From positions 9,052,001 to 9,116,000 of the forward strand of contig NZ_BJHV01000001.1 of assembly GCF_005405925.1 (NCBI RefSeq): a DNA stretch of 64,000 nucleotides, read 5' to 3'. The position numbers and the translations under genes were made by a program. Shown here piece after piece: positions 40,866 through 51,722 of the stretch; the first letter of the stretch is position 1, and every line of letters starts with the position of its first letter. Under the pieces are notes generated by a model. It was not told the origin of the DNA, searched no databases, and saw only the letters and a program-made list of their open reading frames with translations. This DNA comes from Streptomyces antimycoticus. GTDB lineage: Bacteria; Actinomycetota; Actinomycetes; Streptomycetales; Streptomycetaceae.

Positions 40866-40936
40866 ACCGCACCATCCCTCCACCCAGTGCTACGCTGCGA
40901 ATCGGGGCCATCACAAACCGCGATGGGGGAGCCCGT

Positions 40937-41647
40937 ATGGCCGGGGATGCGCTGCGCCCGATGAACCGTCAGCGTCTGTACGAGCAGGTGCTGGAGAGGC
41001 TGCGCGCCTACGTCGAGGAGGGCGGGCTGCGCGCGGGCGACCGGCTGCCGACCGAGCGCGAGCTGGCCCAGCGCCTCGGCATCAGCCGCGCCTCCGTCAA
41101 GCAGGCCATCGTCGTCCTCGAGGTGCAGGGGCTGGTCGAGGTGCGCCAGGGCGGCGGTATGTGCCTGCTGCGCGACAGCCTCGACACCGAGCCCGTCGAG
41201 CGACTGGTGGAGCGCCGCCGCAGGCTGCCCGATGTGCTCGACGCCCGCGAGGCGTTGGAGACCAAGCTGGCCGAACTCGCCGCCGAGCGCCGCACCGACG
41301 ACGACCTCATGGCCCTCCAGCAGGCCCTGATCTGGATGGAGGACGAGATCGAGTCCGGGCGCCACGGCGTCGAGGGCGACCGCCGTTTCCACGCCGCCGT
41401 CACCGCGGCCGCGCACAGCCCGCTGCTCGGCGAGTTCATGCGCTCGATCGCCGACCAGATCGCCGAGAGCCGCGAGGAGTCGCTGCGCCAGCCCGGCCGC
41501 CCCAGGCGTTCGCTCGGCCAGCACCAGAGCATCCTGGACGCCATCGCCGAGCGCCGCCCCAAGGCCGCCGCCGCGGCCATGCGCCGCCATGTCCGCACCG
41601 TCGCCCAAGTGCGGCTGCTCAACTGGAATCCGGACGACGCCACCTGA
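40937..41647 (+). CDS. GntR-family regulator, FadR subfamily
   Basis: A 236-residue repressor: winged helix LYEQVLERLRAYVEEGGLRAGDRLPTERELAQRLGISRASVKQAIVVLEVQGLVEVRQGGG in pieces, then an all-helical FCD ligand domain with metal-ligand style residues (LDAREALETKLAELAAERR, DRRFHAAVTAAAHSPLL, QHQSILDAI, AMRRHV). ATG at 40937 follows GGGGAG. Divergent from the MatC-like carrier with palindromes between, so it likely regulates that carrier in response to a carboxylate. Confidence 0.92.
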   Translation: MAGDALRPMNRQRLYEQVLERLRAYVEEGGLRAGDRLPTERELAQRLGISRASVKQAIVVLEVQGLVEVRQGGGMCLLRDSLDTEPVERLVERRRRLPDVLDAREALETKLAELAAERRTDDDLMALQQALIWMEDEIESGRHGVEGDRRFHAAVTAAAHSPLLGEFMRSIADQIAESREESLRQPGRPRRSLGQHQSILDAIAERRPKAAAAAMRRHVRTVAQVRLLNWNPDDAT

Positions 41648-41738
41648 GCCCGCCGCGGCATCCGTTTCCGAGTGTGACCGATCACGGTCTTGGTCTGGAC
41701 TTTCCCCCGTGGCTCGCTAGGCTCGGCGCGATCGACAC

Positions 41739-41754
41739 GTGAAAGCGCTCTCAC
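41739..41754 (+). promoter_or_regulatory. LacI-type operator before the secreted protease gene
   Basis: GTGAAAGCGCTCTCAC is a 16-base palindrome with central GCGC and one mismatched pair, the shape of LacI/GalR-family operators (TGAAAGCGCTTTCA). It ends 24 bases before the protease ATG, a position where a repressor would block transcription. No LacI-type gene is in the window. Confidence 0.55.
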
Positions 41755-41778
41755 CTGCCGAACCGAAGGGGAACTTCC

Positions 41779-42972
41779 ATGAGACGGAAGCCCGTTGTCC
41801 GTGCCGGACTGTCCGCACTCCTCGTCCTCGGTGCCCTCTCGGGCGCCGGCGGGGCCTTCTCGACCGCCGCAGCGGCATCCGGCGCCGCCGCCCCCGCGGC
41901 GGAGCCCGCCGCCGCGTCGGCGCCGTCCGCCACGCTCGTCCGCGCGCTCGGCCGGGACCTCGGCCTGACCGCGGACCAGGCGCGCGAGCGGCTGACCCAG
42001 GAGGCCGCCGCCATGAAGCTGGAGCCCAAGGCCGAGCGTGCCGCGGGCGCCTCCTACGGCGGCTCCTGGTTCGATGCGAGCAGCGGAAAGCTGGTCGTCG
42101 GCGTCACCAGCGCCGAGCGGACCGCGCCGGTACGGGCCACGGGCGCCACCACCCGGATCGTGAAGCACAGCGCCGACGCGCTCGACGCGGCCAAGGCGCG
42201 CCTCGATGACAAGGCCCGTAAGAAGGCCGCCCCGGCCGGGGTGAGCAGCTGGAGCGCCGACCCCCGCGCGGGCGGCGTCGTGGTCAAGGTCCGTGAGGGC
42301 AGCGAGCGCGACGCCGCCGTGCGCGCCTTCCTCCGCGAGGCCGAGCGCTCGTCCTCGGTCCCGGTCACCGTCGAGAAGGCCCCCGCCCAGGCGCCGACGA
42401 CCTTCGCCGCCGGTACGGTCGGCGGCGACCCGTACTACACCGGCAACGTCCGCTGCTCCATAGGCTTCTCGGTCCAGGGCGGCTTCGTCACCGCCGGACA
42501 CTGCGGCCAGGCCGGGGGCTCCGTCAGCGGCTGGGACGGCTCGTACATCGGCAACTTCCAGGGCTCCTCCTTCCCCGGCAACGACTACGCCTACGTCAGC
42601 GTCGGCAGCGGCTGGTGGACCGTGCCGGTGGTGCTCGGCTGGGGTACCGTTCCCGACCAGCTGGTCCGCGGCTCCGCCGAGGCCCCGATCGGCGCCTCCA
42701 TCTGCCGTTCCGGCTCCACCACCCACTGGCACTGCGGCACGGTCCTGGCCAAGAACGAGACCGTGAACTACAGCCAGGGCGCCGTGTACGAGATGACCAA
42801 GACCAGTGTGTGCGCCGAGGGCGGTGACTCCGGAGGCTCGTTCATCAGCGGCGACCAGGCCCAGGGCGTGACCTCGGGCGGCTGGGGCAACTGCTCCAGT
42901 GGCGGCGAGACCTGGTACCAGCCGATCAACGAGATCCTGTCGGTGTACGGCCTGCGGCTGCACACCGCCTGA
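41779..42972 (+). CDS. Secreted S1 protease, streptogrisin/alpha-lytic type
   Basis: A 397-residue pre-pro-protease. Signal peptide (LSALLVLGALSGAGGAFSTAAAA), alpha-lytic type prodomain (residues about 50-210, LGLTADQARERL through VPVTVEKAP), then a mature domain starting near TFAAGTVGGDPYY. Catalytic triad: His in FVTAGHCG, Asp in NDYAYVSV, Ser in CAEGGDSGGSF; disulfide Cys pairs match streptogrisins. No chitin-binding tail, unlike streptogrisin C. ATG 41779 with AAGGGG. The prodomain acts as a folding chaperone in the family. Followed by a strong terminator. Confidence 0.94.
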   Translation: MRRKPVVRAGLSALLVLGALSGAGGAFSTAAAASGAAAPAAEPAAASAPSATLVRALGRDLGLTADQARERLTQEAAAMKLEPKAERAAGASYGGSWFDASSGKLVVGVTSAERTAPVRATGATTRIVKHSADALDAAKARLDDKARKKAAPAGVSSWSADPRAGGVVVKVREGSERDAAVRAFLREAERSSSVPVTVEKAPAQAPTTFAAGTVGGDPYYTGNVRCSIGFSVQGGFVTAGHCGQAGGSVSGWDGSYIGNFQGSSFPGNDYAYVSVGSGWWTVPVVLGWGTVPDQLVRGSAEAPIGASICRSGSTTHWHCGTVLAKNETVNYSQGAVYEMTKTSVCAEGGDSGGSFISGDQAQGVTSGGWGNCSSGGETWYQPINEILSVYGLRLHTA

Positions 42973-43003
42973 CGGGGCGATACGGCGGCAATACGGCGAC
43001 AAA

Positions 43004-43037
43004 GCGACGGGGCGGGCCCGGCGGCCCGCCCCGTCGC
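43004..43037. terminator. Bidirectional terminator between the protease and laccase genes
   Basis: Perfect 15-base stem GCGACGGGGCGGGCC (43004-43018) with GGCCCGCCCCGTCGC (43023-43037) and a four-base loop. It lies between convergent genes, 32 bases after the protease stop and 15 after the laccase stop, and can serve both. Confidence 0.85.
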
Positions 43038-43051
43038 GATCGTTTCCGCGC

Positions 43052-44056
43052 CTATCCGTGCTGGTGTGCGGACAGCCCATGCGGGTCGTGGCCGGGGATG
43101 GTGCCGTCGGCCTTGGCGACCAGGAACAGCCCGGCCATGCCCATGTCGGAGTGGCTCTGGACATGGCAGTGATACATCCAGGCGCCGGCGCCGACGTTCT
43201 CCCCGGCGATCACCTGGAAGCCGAAGGAGTCGGCCGGCCCGGTGATCTTGTTGTCGATGACCCGGCTCACATCGTCCGGGCCTGCCAGCAGCCCGGTGCG
43301 GTTGTCCGCCCAGCGGTGCCCGTGCATATGGAAGGTGTGGTAGTACTCGCCGTGCGTGATCATGATGATCTCGACGCGGTCGCCCACCGTCGCCCGGAAC
43401 TCGGGCGCTTCATGCCCCGCCTTGTTGTTGATCGTCATGTCATTGAAGACGATGGTGAACTGCTTGTCCGGCAGGATGTCGCCAGCCCGCCGCACCACCA
43501 CGGGGCCGTACAGCCCCTTCCGGAGGCCGCCGGTGCCGTGCGGGGTGCCCACCGCGTGGTCGTGGTAGTGCCAATAGCCCGCGCTGCCCGGCCGCCAGGT
43601 GCCGTCGGCGCGCTTGCCCGGGGCGTGGGTGCGCCAGGTGTAGGTGCGGGTGCCGCCCGGCTCCACGGCGCTGCGGTTGAGCTGGGTGCCGTCGCTGGCC
43701 ACGTCGTAGTCCAGACCGTGCACATGGAGGCTGGCCGTGACGTCCATGGTGTTCTCGAACTCGATGTGCAGGGTGTCGCCCTCGGTCAGCTCGATCAGCG
43801 GACCGGGGATGGTGGCCTTGCCCTTCTCTAGCCCATAGCCCATCTGGCCGTCCGGCAGCTTCTCGGCGTAGAGCTTGAGATGGCGGACCGCCCCGCCCGC
43901 GGTCGCCGTCCGGACCGTGCCGGACGGGGTCTTCGGCGCCTTCGCGGCGGCGGAGGTGGTGAGGGCCAGCGGTCCGACGGCCGCGGCGGCCGCGCCGCCG
44001 GTGAAGAGCCGTCTGCTGAGACCGCGTCTGGAGGTGATGCCGGGTGCGTCGCTCAT
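43052..44056 (-). CDS. Small two-domain laccase (multicopper oxidase)
   Basis: A 334-residue exported copper oxidase. Tat-type signal with [18 protein letters not shown]; copper ligands in [32 protein letters not shown] and [13 protein letters not shown] (Cys-His with Met as axial T1 ligand). Length and layout match the Streptomyces SLAC/EpoA two-domain laccases, which work as trimers and oxidize phenols or small reductants with O2. ATG 44056 follows GGGAG. Divergent from the sugar dehydrogenase gene at 44260. Confidence 0.95.
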
Positions 44057-44259
44057 CGTTCTCCCAAATCGCTGTGGATCCCCTGCCGTTGACGATGCGC
44101 AGATGCCCCGGGGTGCTTTCACGGTAGCCGGGGGCGGCCCGTTCATCCACACTCAGGACAAAGTTCGTTGAGTTGCGGTCATAGCTATTGGCGGGTTGCG
44201 AAAAGCCGTCTAGCTTCCTTCAGCGGTGGTTTCCGTGATGTGAGAGGGATGGGTGACCC

Positions 44260-46758
44260 ATGCGGGACAAACCGTACCAAATGCTCTCAAAATGGAGAGG
44301 GTTGACAGTCGGTCGGCTGCGGAAGAGACGCGCGGGGGTGGCGGCGCTGCTCTTCGGCGCGCTCACCGCGACCCTGCTGGGCGGAAGCCCCGCCAGCGCC
44401 CGGCCCGAGGATCGTGCGCCACTCACGCTGCCGTCCCCGCCCGGCGGGGACAACGTCCGGGTGCTGGTGTTCCACGGCTCGGCGGGGGACGAACCGACCA
44501 CGGTGAACGCGGGCATCGAGGCCATCGAGAAGATCGGCAACCAGGGCCCCGCGGCGACCCGGTTCACCGTCGACGCCACCGCCGACGCCTCGGTCTTCAC
44601 CAAGCCCAAGCTCGGCAAGTACAACGCCGTGGTCTTCCTGACCGGCTCCGGCGATGTGCTCGACCCCGAGCAGGAAGCGGGGCTCGAGGCGTACATGAAG
44701 GCGGGCGGTGGCTTCCTCGGCATCCATGACGCGGCCCGCAACGAGCCGTACTCCGACTGGTACAGCGGGCTGATCGGCGCCCGCCCGGCGGCCACGAGCC
44801 CGGGCAACGCGCAGCGGGCCGTGGTGGAGGTCGGCGACCGCGTCCACCCGGCCACCAAGGAGCTGCCGCTGGAGTGGAAGCGCACGGACACCTGGCTCAA
44901 CTGGAAGGACAACCCCTCCGGCACGGTGCACACCGTGGCCCGGGTCCGCGAGTCCAGCTACCAGCCGGGCACCGGCGCCAACGGCTGGGACCACCCGATC
45001 TCCTGGTGCCGTGACTACGACGGCGGCCGCTCCTTCTACACCGGAATGGGTGGTACCGTCGCCACCTTCCAGGAGACCGACTTCCGCGCCCATCTGCGGG
45101 GCGCGCTGCTGTGGACCACCCGTCTCTCCCGCGGCGACTGCAAGGCCACCATCGACGCGAACTACAAGGCCGAGCGGGTCACCAAGCCCAATCAGCCGGG
45201 CCAGTCGGACCAGATCGGCGAGCCGCACGGCCTCGTCGTCGCCAAGGACGGCCGGGTGCTCTACATCGGCCGCGGCGGCGGTGACAACAGCGCGCCCGTG
45301 GTCACCGACTGGAACGACCCGGAGATCGGCAAGGGCCAGGGCCAGATCCATGTCTACGACCCGGCCACCGGAAAGGTGACGCTCGCGGGCGCCCTGACCG
45401 TCTTCGGCAACAAGGGCGGCGGCGATGAGCTGATCAAGGTCGAGGAGGGGCTGCTCGGTATCGAGCTGGACCCGGACTTCCTCAACAACGGCTGGGTCTA
45501 TCTCCACTACACCCCGCACTCCCGGATCAACCGGGACACCCAGATGGCCGAGCGCCGCGTCTCCCGGTTCACCCTGGACCTGAAGACCAACAAACTGGAC
45601 CTGGGCTCGGAGAAGGTCCTGCTGTCCTGGCCGGTCCAGATCCACAGTTGCTGCCATGCGGGCGGCGGGATGTCCTGGGACTCCAAGGGCAATCTCTACA
45701 TCGCCACCGGGGACAACAACTCCTCGCAGTTCAGCGACGGCTACTCCGGCAACAACCCGCAGCCGAACTACAAGGGTGTCTCCTTCTCCGACGCCCGCCG
45801 CACCGCGGGCAACACCAACAACCTCAACGGCAAGATCCTGCGGATCCACCCCGAGGACGACGGCACCTACACCCTCCCCGAGGGCAATCTCTTCACCGGT
45901 AAGGAGCCCGACGAGGGCGGGGGCAAGACCCGTGGCGAGATCTATGTGATGGGTGTGCGCAACCCGGCCCGGATCTTCGTGGACCAGAAGACCGACATCC
46001 TGTACGCGGGATGGGTCGGCCCCGACGCGGGCGAGCCCAGCACCACCTGGGGTCCGGCCAAGTACGACACCTTCGCCGCCATCACCAAGGCGGGCAACCA
46101 CGGCTGGCCGTTCTGCATGGGCAACAAGCAGCCCTACCGGGACCGCAATCTGCCCGATCCCAGCAAGCCGCTGGGCTGGTACGACTGCGACCACCCCAAG
46201 AACGAGTCGCCCAACAACAACGGTCTGGTGAACCTGCCGCCCATCACCGGGAACACCATCTGGTACTCGCCCCAGGGCGGCGCCCCCGACTATCCGCGGG
46301 ACGCGGGCGGCATCCCCAGCTACAAGGTGTCGGAGGCCAAGTACCTGCTGCCGTGGCTCAAGGGCGGCGGGCAGGCCACCATGAACGGCCCGGTCTACCG
46401 CTACGACGCCGACAGCAAATCGACCACCAAGTGGCCCGCCTACTGGGACGGCAAGTGGTTCGTCGGCGACTTCTACGACGCCGACCAGCCGCGCCACGCG
46501 GTGGTGACCGACCCGAAGACCGTCGGCAAGGGCGGGCTGCCGGTGCACGCCGAAACCCTCAAGAAGATCATCCCGGTGGGCGCCGACGGCATCCGCAACC
46601 TCATGGACTGGAAGTTCGCCCCGGACGGCTCGCTCTACGTCCTCGACTACGGGCGCGGCTTCTTCACCTCCGACTCCAAGTCGGCGCTGTGGCACATCAC
46701 CTACACCGGCGGCGAGCCCACTCCGCTCGCCCAGGATCTGGCCAGGAAGGCGGAGTGA
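44260..46758 (+). CDS. Secreted ThuA domain fused to PQQ-type sugar dehydrogenase
   Basis: An 832-residue exported protein. Signal segment near residues 25-47 (VAALLFGALTATLLGGSPASA). Residues about 66-290 form a ThuA domain (VRVLVFHGSAG, GGGFLGIHDAARNEP, YTGMGGTVATFQETDFRAHLRGALLW). Residues about 317-815 form a glucose/sorbosone dehydrogenase beta propeller (EPHGLVVAKDGRVLYIGRGG, EEGLLGIELDPDF, GGGMSWDSKGNLYIATGDN, VMGVRNPARIF, and a Cys pair HSCCHAGGG). ThuA proteins are linked to 3-keto-disaccharide metabolism. ATG 44260; internal ATG 44281 possible. It is translationally coupled (GTGA overlap) to the next gene. Which sugar is oxidized is unknown. Confidence 0.9.
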   Translation: MRDKPYQMLSKWRGLTVGRLRKRRAGVAALLFGALTATLLGGSPASARPEDRAPLTLPSPPGGDNVRVLVFHGSAGDEPTTVNAGIEAIEKIGNQGPAATRFTVDATADASVFTKPKLGKYNAVVFLTGSGDVLDPEQEAGLEAYMKAGGGFLGIHDAARNEPYSDWYSGLIGARPAATSPGNAQRAVVEVGDRVHPATKELPLEWKRTDTWLNWKDNPSGTVHTVARVRESSYQPGTGANGWDHPISWCRDYDGGRSFYTGMGGTVATFQETDFRAHLRGALLWTTRLSRGDCKATIDANYKAERVTKPNQPGQSDQIGEPHGLVVAKDGRVLYIGRGGGDNSAPVVTDWNDPEIGKGQGQIHVYDPATGKVTLAGALTVFGNKGGGDELIKVEEGLLGIELDPDFLNNGWVYLHYTPHSRINRDTQMAERRVSRFTLDLKTNKLDLGSEKVLLSWPVQIHSCCHAGGGMSWDSKGNLYIATGDNNSSQFSDGYSGNNPQPNYKGVSFSDARRTAGNTNNLNGKILRIHPEDDGTYTLPEGNLFTGKEPDEGGGKTRGEIYVMGVRNPARIFVDQKTDILYAGWVGPDAGEPSTTWGPAKYDTFAAITKAGNHGWPFCMGNKQPYRDRNLPDPSKPLGWYDCDHPKNESPNNNGLVNLPPITGNTIWYSPQGGAPDYPRDAGGIPSYKVSEAKYLLPWLKGGGQATMNGPVYRYDADSKSTTKWPAYWDGKWFVGDFYDADQPRHAVVTDPKTVGKGGLPVHAETLKKIIPVGADGIRNLMDWKFAPDGSLYVLDYGRGFFTSDSKSALWHITYTGGEPTPLAQDLARKAE

Positions 46759-48974
46759 CCGTGAAACGAAGGCGCCCCAAACCCAGCAGACCCTGGCTGC
46801 CCCTCCTCGCCGCGCTGCTCATGATCCTCGGGCTGAGCTCGGCGACGGCGACGGCGGCCCACGGGCAGAACGACACCCGGCAGGCCGCACAGCAGACCCT
46901 CACCTGGACCGCGGGTGACGACATCACCAAGTACGCCTCGGCGCCCACCACCGCGGTCGCCGGGAAGACCACCATCGTCTTCGAGAACAGCACCGCCACC
47001 GGCAACACCATGGGGATGCCGCACACCCTGACGTTCGACGTCTCCGACCCCGAGTACAACAACGACGTCCCGCTGAACATCCTCGCCAACCCCTCGGACG
47101 ACAGCGGCGGCAAGCACACCGCCGAGGTCACCCTCAGCCCCGGCCGCTACCGCTACCACTGCACCATCCCCGGTCACGGCCAGATGCAGGGCATTCTGGT
47201 GGTCACCGACGGTGGCGGTGGCGAGGACACCACCGCGCCCGACGCCTCCGCGAAGGTCGAGGGGGAGAAGAACGCGGACGGCGCCTACATCGGGATGGCC
47301 ACCGTCACGGTGTCCGCCACCGACGAGGGCTCGGGCGTGGACCGGATCGAGTTCGCGGAGGGAGACGGGGCGTTCCAGCCGTACACCGCTCCGGTGATGG
47401 TCCACCAGGTGGGCGCGCACACCATCCGCTACCGGGCCGTGGACAAGGCCGGGAACGTATCGGAGGCGAAGTCGGTGGACTTCACCGTGGTGGCCCCGCC
47501 GACGGACGACACCACGGCGCCCGAGACCTCCGCCACCGTCTCCGGTGAGAAGGACCCGTCCGGTGCGTACATCGGCATGGCCACCGTGACCATCACCGCC
47601 TCCGACACCGGCTCCGGGGTCAACCGGATCGACTACGCCCTGGGCCAGGGGGAGTTCCAGCCCTACACCGGTCCGGTCATGGTCCATGACGCGGGCGCCC
47701 ACACGGTGCGCTACCGGGCGGCGGACAAGGCGGGGAACGTATCGGAGGTGAAGTCGGTGGACTTCACCGTGGTGGCCCCGCCGGCCGAGGACACCACACC
47801 CCCGGCGGTCTCCGCGACGGTCGACGGAACGAAGAACTCCGACGGTGCCTATGTCGGCAGCGCCAAGGTCACGCTCACCGCGGCCGACGATGACTCCGGG
47901 GTGGAGAAGGTCGAGTACTCCCTGGACAGCGGTCCGTATCTCGCCTACACCACCCCCGTGGCGGTGGACCGGGTGGGCCGCCACACCGTCGCGTTCCGCG
48001 CCACCGACAAGGCGGGCAACACCTCCGAGGCGCGGCAACTGGCGTTCACCGTGGCCGAGGGCGGCGGGGTGCCCGCACCCGCGTGTCCGGAGTGGGACGA
48101 GCGCCTCACGGTGATCGTCGGCACGGTGGACAGCGGCGTCCCCAACCGCATCACCCGTAGCCGCTGCACCATCAATGAGCTGATCGAGGACGAGAAGGAC
48201 TGGTCCTCCCACGCCCTCTTCCTCAAGCACGTCACCTCCGTCACCGACAAGCTGCTCACCGACGGCGTGATCGACCAGCGCGAGTACCGGGCGATCAACA
48301 AGGCGGCCAAGCAGTCCGGGATCGGCAAGCCCGGTCAGGACGAGGGCTACCGTCCGCTGTTCGACGGCACCAAGAAGTCCTACGACAAGTGGCAGCACGT
48401 GGGCGGCGGGGCCTTCGGTCTCAATGACGACGGCAGCATCACCAGCAGCACCTCGGTCGAGGGCATGGGCATGCTGTGGTTCCCGCAGCGGACGTACGAC
48501 GACTTCTCGCTGAAGCTCCAGTTCCGCGATGACGCACCCGGGACGGGCAATGCCAACGGCGGTGTCTTCGTGCGCTTCCCCTATGTGCACGACCACCCCG
48601 AGGAGTCCCGTCCGGAGTGGGTCGCCATCAAATACGGGCACGAGGTGCAGATCCTCGACCGCCCCGACGGCGACATGTACAAGACCGGATCGATCTACGG
48701 TTTCGACCGGGTCGGGCTCGCCGGTGCCGGGGTCACTCCCAAGGGCAGCTGGAACGACTACGAGATCCGCGTGGTCGGTCAGCACTACTCGATCTACCGC
48801 AACGGTGTGCTGCTCAATGAGTTCGAGAACACCGGTGGCCAGGAGTTCACCCCGCCGCGCGGGGACGACCCCGGCACGGACGGCCGTCGGTACTCCTCCG
48901 GGTACATCGGTCTCCAGGTCCACAGCACCGATGATGTGATCTCGTACCGCGACATCCGCATCAAGGAGCTGTAG
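46755..48974 (+). CDS. Secreted cupredoxin, Ig-like repeats and 3-keto-disaccharide hydrolase domain
   Basis: A 739-residue exported multidomain protein. Signal peptide about 13-35 (LPLLAALLMILGLSSATATAA). Residues about 45-157: cupredoxin with ligands His in GMPHTLTF and Cys, His, Met in YHCTIPGHGQMQG. Residues about 158-440: three Ig-like repeats of 90-95 residues, each with DTTAP, DGAYIGMATVTVSA and RYRAVDKAGNVSEAKSVDFTV. About 450-525: helical linker with CTINELIEDEKDW. About 530-739: DUF1080/3-keto-disaccharide hydrolase fold (YRPLFDGTKKSYDKWQHVGG, GGVFVRFPYV, RDIRIKEL). GTG 46755 overlaps the previous stop; GTG 46761 is also possible. The two products probably act together outside the cell. 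Confidence 0.9.
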   Translation: MTVKRRRPKPSRPWLPLLAALLMILGLSSATATAAHGQNDTRQAAQQTLTWTAGDDITKYASAPTTAVAGKTTIVFENSTATGNTMGMPHTLTFDVSDPEYNNDVPLNILANPSDDSGGKHTAEVTLSPGRYRYHCTIPGHGQMQGILVVTDGGGGEDTTAPDASAKVEGEKNADGAYIGMATVTVSATDEGSGVDRIEFAEGDGAFQPYTAPVMVHQVGAHTIRYRAVDKAGNVSEAKSVDFTVVAPPTDDTTAPETSATVSGEKDPSGAYIGMATVTITASDTGSGVNRIDYALGQGEFQPYTGPVMVHDAGAHTVRYRAADKAGNVSEVKSVDFTVVAPPAEDTTPPAVSATVDGTKNSDGAYVGSAKVTLTAADDDSGVEKVEYSLDSGPYLAYTTPVAVDRVGRHTVAFRATDKAGNTSEARQLAFTVAEGGGVPAPACPEWDERLTVIVGTVDSGVPNRITRSRCTINELIEDEKDWSSHALFLKHVTSVTDKLLTDGVIDQREYRAINKAAKQSGIGKPGQDEGYRPLFDGTKKSYDKWQHVGGGAFGLNDDGSITSSTSVEGMGMLWFPQRTYDDFSLKLQFRDDAPGTGNANGGVFVRFPYVHDHPEESRPEWVAIKYGHEVQILDRPDGDMYKTGSIYGFDRVGLAGAGVTPKGSWNDYEIRVVGQHYSIYRNGVLLNEFENTGGQEFTPPRGDDPGTDGRRYSSGYIGLQVHSTDDVISYRDIRIKEL

Positions 48975-49082
48975 GACAGCCCGCGTACGGCGTGAGGAAC
49001 GGCGCGAGAACGGCGTGAGGAGATGAGTGGCCGCCGGAGCACCCCAGCCCCCGGCGGCCACCGTCTTGTGGCACGGACCGAC

Positions 49083-49097
49083 GTTACCTCAGGTAAC
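49083..49097. other. Palindrome in the convergent 48974-49131 gap
   Basis: GTTACCT-C-AGGTAAC, perfect seven-base arms, followed by GGGTAACCC. It lies between two gene 3' ends. The stem is short and AT-rich for a terminator, so it may instead be a protein binding site; no role assigned. Confidence 0.4.
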
Positions 49098-49130
49098 ACT
49101 CACGGGTAACCCGTTGGGGCTGACGTATCG

Positions 49131-51002
49131 TCAGGAGTTCAGGGTGTCGAGGATCCCCTGTCCGTACTTCACCAGCTTGTTCTCGCCGACCCCGCTCACC
49201 GTGCCGAGTTCATCGAGCGTGGTGGGGGAGAGGATCGCGATCTCGCGCAGGGTGGCGTCATGGAAGACCACATACGCGGGTACGCCCTGCTCCTTCGCGG
49301 TCGCCGCACGCCAGGCGCGCAGCCGCTCGAAGACCGGCACGGCCTCCTCCGGCAGATCCACCGGGGCCTTCTTGGACTTCCCCGAAGCCCCCGTCTTCCC
49401 CTTGGCGGCGCGCGCAGCGTTCTCCGGCTCACGCCGCAGCCTGACCTCGCGCCGCTGGCCCAGCACCTCCGAGCTCGTGTCGGAGAGCACCAGCGTGCCG
49501 TAGTCCCCCTCGACGCCGATCAGTCCCTGTGCCAGCAACTGCCGTACCACGCCGCGCCATTCGGCCTCGCGCAGCTCGGTGCCGATGCCGAACACCGAGA
49601 GGGCGTCATGGTCGAACTGGATGACCTTGGCCGTCTTCTTGCCGAGCAGAATGTCGATGATCTGCCCCGCGCCGAACTTCTGGTTGCGCTCCCGCTTGAG
49701 CCGCACCACCGTGGACAGCAGCTTCTGCGCGGCGATCGTGCCGTCCCAGGACTCCGGCGGGGTGAGGCAGGTGTCGCAGTTCCCGCAGGGGGTGGACTCC
49801 TGGCCGAAGTAGGCCAGCAGCCCCACCCGGCGGCACTCCACCGTCTCGCACAGCGCCAGCATCGAGTCGAGATGGGCGCCGAGGCGGCGCCGATGGGTGT
49901 CGTCGCCCTCGGAGGTGTCGATCATCTTCCGCTGCTGGACGACGTCCTGGAGCCCGTACGCCAGCCAGGCGGTGGAGGGCTGCCCGTCCCGCCCGGCGCG
50001 GCCGGTCTCCTGGTAGTAGCCCTCGACGGACTTGGGCAGGTCCAGATGGGCCACGAACCGCACATCGGGCTTGTCGATCCCCATGCCGAAGGCGATCGTG
50101 GCCACCACGACCAGACCGTCCTCCCGCAGGAAGCGCGCCTGGTGCTCGGCGCGCATCCGCGCGTCCAGCCCCGCGTGGTACGGCACTGCGTCGATGCCCT
50201 GGGCGACCAGGAACTCGGCCGTCTTCTCCACAGAGGAGCGGGACAGGCAGTAGACGATCCCCGCGTCGCCCGCGTGCTCGGTGCGCAGCAGCTCCAGCAG
50301 CTGCTTCTTGGGCTCGTTCTTGGGGGCGATCCGGTACTGGATGTTCGGACGGTCGAAGCTGGCCACGAAGTGCAGCGCGTCCTGCAGCTTCAGCCGGGAC
50401 GCGATCTCCGAGTGGGTGGCCTCGGTGGCGGTCGCGGTCAGCGCGATCCGGGGCACGGTGGGCCAGCGCTCATGCAGCTCGGACAGGGCCAGATAGTCGG
50501 GCCGGAAGTCGTGGCCCCACTGGGCCACACAGTGCGCCTCGTCGATGGCGAACAGCGAGATCGTGCCCCGGTCCAGCAGCCGCAGCGTGGACTCGACCCG
50601 CAGCCGCTCCGGCGCGAGATAGAGCAGGTCCAGCTCGCCCGCGAGGAACTCGGCCTCGACCATCCGCCGCTCGTCAAGATCCTGGGTGGAGTTGAGGAAC
50701 CCGGCCCGCACCCCGAGGTTCCGCAGGGCGTCGACCTGGTCCTGCATCAGCGCGATCAGGGGGGAGACGACGACGCCGACGCCCTTCCGCACGAGCGCCG
50801 GGATCTGGTAGCACAGCGATTTGCCACCGCCGGTCGGCATGAGGACGAGCGCGTCACCACCGGCCACGACATGGTCGATGATCTCCTGCTGACCTCCCCG
50901 GAACGAGTCGTAACCGAAGACGCGGTGCAGCACGCCGAGCGCCTCGCTCGCATCGGTGCCGAGCGCGGCGCTCGTATCGGGGCCGGTGTCGGGAAGAGCC
51001 AT
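49131..51002 (-). CDS. recQ: ATP-dependent DNA helicase RecQ
   Basis: A 623-residue superfamily 2 helicase. Walker [21 protein letters not shown] box [20 protein letters not shown], motif [35 protein letters not shown] (motif VI), then a zinc-binding RQC region with Cys residues ([15 protein letters not shown]), and a C-terminal HRDC domain ([28 protein letters not shown]). It unwinds DNA in recombination and replication fork repair. ATG 51002. Downstream gap is shared with the convergent sugar-enzyme gene. Confidence 0.96.
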
Positions 51003-51161
51003 CCGCCGATTCTAGGGGGCCCGCCGGAACCCGCGGTGACCGCCTGTGGACAACCGGCCGGATGAGGCAAGGTGTGTGGGCACAGTGGCCGATGAGATGG
51101 GCGGCGTGCCATGCTCATGCCCACTTGCTCTGTCCGTCCTTCCCCCACAAGGAGGCCGATC

Positions 51162-51722
51162 GTGAGATCCAGCAAGTTCGTCCGTGCCTTACCCGCCGCG
51201 GTGACGGCGGTGCTCGCCCTGACGGCCGGACAGGCCGTGGCCGCTCCCTCCTCCGCCGCCCCGGCGGAGCACACGGCCGCCGCGCGGGTCGTGACGTACG
51301 ACGCCAGCGGGGCGGCCGAGTTCAAGGACGCCGTCTCCAAGGGCGCGGCGATCTGGAACGAGAGCGTGGCCAACGTGGAGCTGAAGCCGGCCGCGTCCGG
51401 GCAGCAGGCCAACGTCCGCATCATCGCGGACAACGGCTGGCCCCGCACGCTGTCCACCGGACTGGGCCGCGGCACGATCTACTTCGGCCGCCAGGCCGTC
51501 GACGAGGGCTACAACACGGTGCGGATCTCCTCGCATGAGCTCGGCCATATCCTCGGCCTGCCGGACATGAAGCCAGGGCCGTGTTCGAGCCTGATGTCCG
51601 GCTCCACCGCCGGGACCTCCTGCACCAACCCCTACCCGAACACCGCCGAGAAGGCCGAGGTCGAGGACAGCTTCGGCCTGGTGGGCGCGGTGACCGCCGC
51701 ACCGCGGATGTACCGGGACTGA
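51162..51722 (+). CDS. snpA: Snapalysin, small secreted neutral metalloprotease (M7)
   Basis: A 186-residue secreted protease: signal peptide (VRALPAAVTAVLALTAGQAVAA), short pro-segment, and mature domain from about ARVVTYDASG. Zinc motif ISSHELGHILGLPD with His, His and Asp ligands and catalytic Glu; Cys pair CSSLMSG and SCTNPYPN. GTG at 51162 has AAGGAGG six bases upstream, better than the ATG at 51111. In other Streptomyces a LysR regulator is usually divergent from this gene; here recQ and a DeoR regulator flank it instead. Confidence 0.95.
   Translation: MRSSKFVRALPAAVTAVLALTAGQAVAAPSSAAPAEHTAAARVVTYDASGAAEFKDAVSKGAAIWNESVANVELKPAASGQQANVRIIADNGWPRTLSTGLGRGTIYFGRQAVDEGYNTVRISSHELGHILGLPDMKPGPCSSLMSGSTAGTSCTNPYPNTAEKAEVEDSFGLVGAVTAAPRMYRD

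Follow-up and report, generated by a model that had tools for sequence, protein, structure and literature searches.

What a small bacterial laccase works with outside the cell is the question raised by a 64,000-nucleotide stretch of Streptomyces antimycoticus DNA (hereafter the window; positions 9,052,001-9,116,000 of its contig, in a genome of 11.2 Mb). In the window, a two-domain laccase gene stands back to back with two overlapping genes for predicted secreted proteins, one fusing a ThuA domain to a GSDH domain (the ThuA-GSDH protein) and the other joining a cupredoxin, three immunoglobulin-like (Ig) repeats and a PF06439 (DUF1080) domain (the cupredoxin-Ig protein). Passages of PMC3527528 state that the physiological role remains unknown for most characterised bacterial laccases, and passages of PMC5675413 link Streptomyces laccases to lignin degradation, with their role there unclear; the laccase content of an excerpt of PMC12705666 is overproduction.

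The near-constant sugar-chemistry and cupredoxin neighbours of the small laccase suggest that these are its working partners. On the reading that we favour, at a probability somewhat short of even, the trio would be a secreted module in which the ThuA-GSDH protein oxidises a sugar, the cupredoxin passes the electrons to the small laccase, and PF06439 processes the keto-sugar. No description of a laccase, ThuA-GSDH and cupredoxin gene set was found in the open-licence literature, in a search that was not exhaustive, and no mention of SCO6711, SCO6713 or SCO6714 was found there.

Linkage of the laccase and its partners

The laccase gene (43052..44056, minus strand) encodes two multicopper-oxidase domains (PF07731 and PF07732, Pfam), and its best match in the Protein Data Bank (PDB) was 3cg8, the small laccase SLAC of S. 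coelicolor (E 6.1e-173, 578 bits, residues 41-359); solved structures of small laccases are numerous, and 50 of the 60 PDB sequences among the matches listed were named laccases or copper or multicopper oxidases, scoring far above the rest. By this homology the window laccase is classed as the ortholog of SLAC, and among the closest named relatives (the best 80 of at least 591 loci) it was 97% identical to that of S. niphimycinicus. Its start is most likely the ATG at 44056, with GGGAG upstream, the longest open reading frame (ORF) extending to 44152, and its N terminus, read by eye, resembles a twin-arginine translocation (Tat) signal.

On the plus strand, the ThuA-GSDH gene (44260..46758, 832 amino acids) carries ThuA at residues 67-286 (44458..45117; PF06283, 207.6 bits) and a GSDH match at residues 391-621 (45430..46122; PF07995, 83.7 bits) inside a propeller-type region. 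The cupredoxin-Ig gene follows on the same strand (46755..48974, 739 amino acids) and encodes the cupredoxin at residues 46-152 (46890..47210), three OmpL47-type Ig-like repeats at residues ~160-433 (47232..48053; NF047446 in three stretches, 274 bits), and PF06439, a 3-keto-disaccharide hydrolase or eliminase-hydratase domain, at residues 531-737 (48345..48965; 116 bits). The two genes overlap in the sequence GTGA (46755-46758), which holds the TGA stop of the first and a GTG start codon of the second; another in-frame GTG lies at 46761, preceded by GGAG at a distance of 5 bases, and reads as an equally good start. Both N termini look like export signals, judged by eye rather than by a predictor. 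Taking the ATG at 44056, 203 bases separate the start codons of the laccase and ThuA-GSDH genes. An earlier note on this DNA had described the two ORFs overlapping at GTGA, a divergent laccase about 200 bases away, and three Ig repeats joined to a DUF1080 domain, all of which agree with the ORF positions and profile matches.

Across 199 Streptomyces genomes, searched at E ≤ 1e-40 for the laccase and E ≤ 1e-150 for the ThuA-GSDH protein, the laccase was found in 126 and the ThuA-GSDH protein in 121, with both in 119, laccase only in 7, ThuA-GSDH protein only in 2 and neither in 71 (Fisher p 5e-43, ignoring phylogeny). In all 119 genomes with both, the two were adjacent, divergent and on the same contig, with 109-409 bases (median 213) between the matches. 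The two genomes with the ThuA-GSDH protein only comprise one in which a contig edge lies where the laccase would be (G097) and one in which the pair is truncated and decayed (G192), and one laccase-only genome (G072) holds just fragments of the laccase and the cupredoxin-Ig protein. A genome with the pair nearly always has the laccase too, whereas some laccases occur on their own. The cupredoxin-Ig protein was searched for in the genomes of 61 relatives, where orthologs of all three proteins each occurred in 21, the identical 21 genomes, one of them (G030) with the cupredoxin-Ig gene split over two frames. Among 80 named SLAC loci, all from close relatives and again the best of at least 591, both partners were adjacent in 78, some being cut by contig ends; of the exceptions, one has a contig ending inside the ThuA-GSDH gene (L084) and the other retains only an N-terminal piece of it (L061). 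Because the trio recurs in more than 100 genomes, it is not a chance arrangement.

A search of 394 genomes of the class (laccase E ≤ 1e-60; strong ThuA-GSDH homologs E < 1e-200) found the laccase in 49, of which 25 are Streptomyces and 24 belong to three other families, and strong ThuA-GSDH homologs in 48, comprising the same 25 Streptomyces and 23 of the 24 others. By their coordinates, all 23 of these non-Streptomyces homologs lay at most 1.9 kb from the laccase match; 17 of them were in tandem with it and the other 6 divergent. Of the 24 genomes, 12 were opened, at 13 stretches, and the remaining adjacency was read from match coordinates. In the exception (G229), a laccase pair lies less than 1.2 kb from the contig start, which falls on the side expected for a divergent partner. 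Weaker ThuA-GSDH matches (E 2.8e-159 to 9.4e-102, 38-46% identity) occurred in 11 further genomes of the class, which had no laccase. The conserved pairing for which the earlier note had proposed a search, and whose absence would have refuted its proposal, was found inside the genus (119 of 199 genomes), outside it (23 of 24) and, for the second protein, in 21 of 21 genomes among the 61 relatives. Since both tandem and divergent arrangements occur outside the genus, the laccase/ThuA-GSDH link has outlived rearrangement; it is real and old.

The domains themselves have also been redistributed. In the ten opened loci with complete genes (L123-L131 and L135), the ThuA-GSDH homolog is 1345-1417 amino acids long and has PF06439 at or near its C terminus (tblastn), and Pfam analysis of five of these homologs gave ThuA split by an F5/8C domain, followed by GSDH, PKD and PF06439. 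A separate cupredoxin-Ig gene (648-1125 amino acids) comes next in eight of the ten, the contigs of the other two (L124, L125) ending ~1.1 kb past the gene. The pattern varies outside the genus: three proteins from Plantactinospora and Micromonospora (1010-1047 amino acids) resemble the window in having PF06439 on the cupredoxin-Ig chain. The parts thus remain together even though PF06439 is carried by one secreted protein in some loci and by the other elsewhere. Tandem laccase pairs were also seen outside Streptomyces, beside a ThuA-GSDH-PF06439 gene in L124-L126 and at the contig start in L132, the copies being 48-64% identical to the window laccase.

Conserved sites and the shared promoter

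For the cupredoxin, the earlier note had claimed a full His-Cys-His-Met set, and H90, C136, H141 and M144 proved invariant in 40 of 40 aligned relatives, which include three Plantactinospora/Micromonospora proteins and two without PF06439. From their sequence context we read these residues as a type-1 copper ligand set. Pfam gave no cupredoxin model in the window protein; PF00127 exceeded its cut-off in a related protein (23.2 versus 21.2 bits). By analogy with known cupredoxins, conservation of the type-1 site favours a role in electron transfer. Invariant columns numbered 43 of 107 in the cupredoxin and 87 of 211 in PF06439 (38 rows having that domain), and the Ig repeats were less conserved.

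PF06439 in the cupredoxin-Ig protein scored 116 bits against a cut-off of 26.8. The structure model of this protein had a mean predicted local distance difference test (pLDDT) score of 74.8, and Foldseek matched the PF06439 domain to 9fbe, 3osd, 8v31, 8rr2 and 8tda (E 4.0e-10 to 1.1e-9), which include the 3-keto-2-hydroxy-glucal hydratases 8tda/8v31, the 3-keto-glycoside eliminase/hydratase 8rr2/9fbe and BT2157 (3osd); an E-x-Q-x-x-D stretch (E106, Q108 and D111 of the domain) was kept in 10 of 10 aligned domains. The 3-keto-sugar hydrolase assignment made in the earlier note thereby gains a predicted fold in common with solved 3-keto-glycoside eliminase/hydratases. Passages of PMC9007349 describe BT2157 as a 3-ketotrehalose hydrolase, DUF1080 genes near lactose 3-dehydrogenase, and THTE_1561, an endo-xanthanase/lichenase that also carries a DUF1080/PF06439 domain; because of this last protein, a function taken from the domain name alone is unsafe.

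The region between the divergent genes (44141..44217) contains four conserved blocks at fixed spacing, which on the laccase strand read GAAGCTAGAC (44217-44208), CGCCAATAG (44193-44185), CGAACTTTGTCCTG (44167-44154) and GTGTGGATGAAC (44152-44141). The blocks were defined from nine loci and then counted over 84 Streptomyces loci, made up of four divergent trios and 80 named SLAC loci (L061 and L084 included). They were present in 80 of the 84, and in 55 of 59 once similar regions were removed; none of the 7 upstream regions of laccases lacking partners had them. In our reading, CGCCAA and CTAGC are the candidate -35 (TTGGCG) and -10 (TAGCTT) elements, on the other strand, of a ThuA-GSDH promoter with a spacer of 17; a sigma-70 scan of the promoter region returned no promoter. 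The pattern GAACTTTGTCCTG matched exactly once in the S. antimycoticus genome, at the trio promoter. With one mismatch allowed, the trio site was found in 4 of 6 genomes, G009 and G026 being the exceptions, and hits elsewhere were at chance level, because 18 hits were obtained against 15 for the reversed pattern.

In the loci compared outside Streptomyces, copies of GAACTTTGTCCTG with two mismatches, which may be chance, lie only in L131 (9268-9280) and L132 (928-940), upstream of the laccase but on the opposite strand. A palindrome, ATGGGTGACCCAT at 44249-44261, was considered and dropped, being imperfect in the relatives compared. One genome (G168) has one laccase with partners and one without (L118); L118 and L109-L114 are without the promoter blocks, and the partnerless loci L110-L112 and L114 have flanking genes in common.

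Weighing the proposed sugar-oxidising module

In the proposed module, the ThuA-GSDH protein would act extracellularly, binding and oxidising a sugar unit within a glycan or glycoside. Electrons would pass from the oxidised sugar to the type-1 copper of the cupredoxin-Ig protein and from there to the small laccase, the electron sink that would reduce O2 to water; PF06439, on either secreted protein, would then handle the keto-sugar by elimination or hydration. The parts, their linkage, the domain rearrangement, the invariant ligands and the promoter blocks are observed; which domain does the oxidising, what cofactor and substrate it uses and which way electrons flow are inferred from them. Counted for the module, beside the linkage, the ligands, the promoter geometry and the PF06439 fold, are the CBM6 or F5/8C domains borne by relatives of the ThuA-GSDH protein and a paralogous GSDH, ThuA-PF06439 cluster with GFO/IDH and TIM-barrel genes (L098).

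A number of points weigh against this proposal. The activity and redox role of the module are predictions from its genes. Small laccases act on phenols directly and do not require a protein partner, and laccases without partners occur in 7 of 126 Streptomyces genomes and as second copies in two genomes (L118 in G168, L133 in G229). In two divergent Streptomyces trios (L119, L120), the second gene encodes 369-373 amino acids with cupredoxin and Ig and without PF06439, so a keto-sugar step is not obligatory; the coupled sugar-oxidation and keto-hydrolysis unit of the earlier note gains partial support from linkage, ligands and fold. The 50 fold matches listed for the cupredoxin-Ig protein included PF06439-type and Ig-type entries and no cupredoxin, and the four-block geometry was not recovered outside Streptomyces, where the best matches in six divergent loci had 2-6 mismatches. 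A structure model of the ThuA-GSDH protein, built from 24 close orthologs, was poor (mean pLDDT 52), was left unused, and yielded no active-site geometry. Two further points concern the cofactor: the GRLR motif was not found in the GSDH region of the ThuA-GSDH protein, and PqqC (TIGR02111) showed no association with the trio, being present in 26 of the 119 genomes that have the trio and in 18 of the remaining 80 (Fisher p=1). Because of these two results, the GSDH domain may not be a pyrroloquinoline quinone (PQQ) dehydrogenase. PQQ synthesis is not tied to the trio module, and PQQ could still be supplied externally.

The fusion of ThuA to a PQQ-type dehydrogenase, as the earlier note had it, therefore stands for ThuA, for PF07995 and for the His and Arg-Asn positions, but not for GRLR or for a tie to PQQ synthesis. 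PF07995 exceeded its cut-off (83.7 versus 25 bits), covering only profile positions 44-224 of 332, and the domain scored far under the TIGR03606 cut-off (40.3 versus 434.55 bits). H466, R567-N568, NxGWP and E395 align with L107, a canonical GSDH protein encoded by the same genome, and all 12 aligned trio homologs have them, H466 and R567-N568 being invariant in 24 of 24 orthologs; we take H466 and R567-N568 to correspond to the catalytic base and the PQQ neighbours of GSDH enzymes. GRLR, whose arginines are presumably PQQ anchors, is present in L107, 3das, 2ism and 3a9g. At its place the window protein has IRNLMD before PDGSLYV, with GRLREVQVGPDGALYV of 2ism corresponding to IRNLMDWKFAPDGSLYV; N780-L781-M782 is found in 24 of 24 orthologs, and R779 beside it is R in 17, K in 6 and N in 1. 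Because MAFFT left L107 gapped, this position was set by eye from the PDGxLY stretch and is of moderate certainty.

Directly before the canonical His H466 of the HxGG motif stands a vicinal Cys pair, in an H-S-C-C-H motif (residues 462-466, 45643..45657) that was kept in 12 of 12 aligned trio homologs (nine of them non-Streptomyces) and in 24 of 24 orthologs; of three aligned GSDH paralogs, one keeps only CCH and two are without the motif. By its residues, the motif may bind a metal or form a vicinal disulfide. A more specific version of the module, in which the laccase is the terminal oxidase for glycans, the cupredoxin-Ig protein its natural donor, and a GSDH domain without home-made PQQ uses H-S-C-C-H to make 3-keto-sugars for PF06439, we consider quite unlikely.

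The canonical GSDH protein L107 (360 amino acids, a relative of 3das) lies outside the window (C1:9165000-9180000), beside pqqB, pqqC and pqqE but on the other strand from them, ~75 kb from the trio, and is likely to be a genuine PQQ-dependent sugar dehydrogenase accompanied by genes for its cofactor. These nearby genes had been taken as support for PQQ use by the ThuA-GSDH protein, an argument dropped after the genus-wide PqqC count.

Coexpression alone would account for the linkage and the shared promoter, and the rival explanation that survives best, in our estimate a rather unlikely one, is a parallel attack on lignocellulose. The laccase would oxidise lignin phenolics and the pair would bind and cleave the sugar parts (phenolic glycosides, lignin-carbohydrate links), with coexpression since the substrates co-occur and no electron transfer among the proteins. 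Sugar-binding domains in relatives and the link of Streptomyces laccases to lignin degradation in passages of PMC5675413 are in its favour. It leaves unexplained, however, why the cupredoxin retains an intact and invariant type-1 site, including in trios that have lost PF06439, and why the ThuA-GSDH protein is so rare without laccase (2 of 121, one at a contig end and one decayed).

As part of a copper response, the cupredoxin might instead store copper or pass it to the laccase, which would also dispose of cuprous ions, in a copper-handling unit that we regard as improbable: H-C-H-M on a CTIPGHxxM loop is, we assume, the electron-transfer type of cupredoxin, and the sugar domains would be left unexplained. 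Reports on regulation point both ways. SCO6710, which from its number and name is probably the ortholog of the cupredoxin-Ig protein (SCO6710-6711 would on the same grounds be the partner genes in S. coelicolor), is reported in a passage of PMC6414726 as supposedly CsoR-repressed, whereas a passage of PMC3902906 names csoR, copZA1 and copZA2 as the three CsoR operators of S. lividans. No close CsoR type-2 operator (TACCCC-N5-GGGGTA) was found in 92 regions upstream of laccases, the best match per region having 2 mismatches in 1, 3 in 20, 4 in 56 and 5 in 15.

Very doubtful is a binding-only role, in which the PF06439 and ThuA-GSDH proteins anchor laccase and cupredoxin on a glycan (e.g. the hyphal surface) without sugar catalysis, since the fold that PF06439 shares with binding modules (CBM66 4b1m among the matches), the incomplete canonical motif set of GSDH, and the F5/8C and PKD domains in relatives outside the genus are set against canonical His, Arg-Asn and NxGWP positions kept in the aligned trio homologs and a PF06439 as conserved as the cupredoxin, beyond the needs of an anchor.

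Relation to known systems

Whichever way the sugar-oxidising module is judged, a near-constant secreted neighbour and an intact type-1 cupredoxin turn the role of the small laccase into a directly testable question, and if the GSDH domain does oxidise sugars without PQQ, this would be a new sugar-oxidising chemistry. Among the seven ORFs scanned around the trio (40931-51719), there was no GFO/IDH, GMC or LacABC dehydrogenase. The trio region is flanked on one side by a gene with an alpha-lytic protease prodomain (41779-42972) and on the other by a snapalysin-like (M7) metalloprotease gene (51111-51722), both ordinary Streptomyces exoenzyme types.

The Caulobacter route in which LacABC and a DUF1080 protein act on 3-keto-lactose in the periplasm (described in passages of PMC9007349) shares with the proposed module an extracytoplasmic oxidation followed by a DUF1080 protein; the trio has a ThuA-GSDH protein, a cupredoxin and a laccase instead of LacABC.

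Closer in domain content are other clusters, in which the same three sugar-related domains occur on one chain or in neighbouring genes. L098, in the S. antimycoticus genome, has GFO/IDH, TIM-barrel, GSDH-PKD-CBM6 and ThuA-PF06439 genes, of which we take the GFO/IDH and TIM-barrel genes to be typical of a 3-keto-glycoside pathway, and L100, also a Streptomyces locus, encodes a single GSDH-PKD-CBM6-ThuA-PF06439 chain of 1315 amino acids. Because of this fusion and the L098 cluster, GSDH, ThuA and PF06439 are tied together independently of the laccase. CBM6 and PKD are added in these loci, and no cupredoxin or laccase was found among the five ORFs scanned of L098. The S. antimycoticus genome also holds L099, with GFO/IDH, GSDH-PKD-CBM6, ThuA, GH38 and GH95 genes (Pfam), and L100 and L106 resemble L098, as judged from ORF starts only; from their gene content, L098, L099, L100 and L106 are candidate 3-keto-glycan pathways.

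Compared with the soluble GSDH dehydrogenases (PF07995; 1c9u, 3das, 2ism, 3a9g), the ThuA-GSDH protein belongs to the same Pfam family and has the canonical His, Arg-Asn, NxGWP and E-x-GLxG positions, but differs in the absence of GRLR, in an H-S-C-C-H motif ending in the canonical His, in the ThuA fusion and in having no tie to PQQ synthesis. With the PF06439 3-keto-glycoside hydrolases and eliminase-hydratases (3osd, 8tda, 8v31, 8rr2, 9fbe), the window domain shares the Pfam domain and the fold at 21-23% identity, and it differs in its fusion partner, which is a cupredoxin in Streptomyces and ThuA-GSDH in the loci opened elsewhere. To the two-domain small laccases SLAC and EpoA (3cg8, SCO6712), of which the window laccase is the ortholog, the enzyme itself shows no difference; what the locus adds is a set of conserved gene partners.

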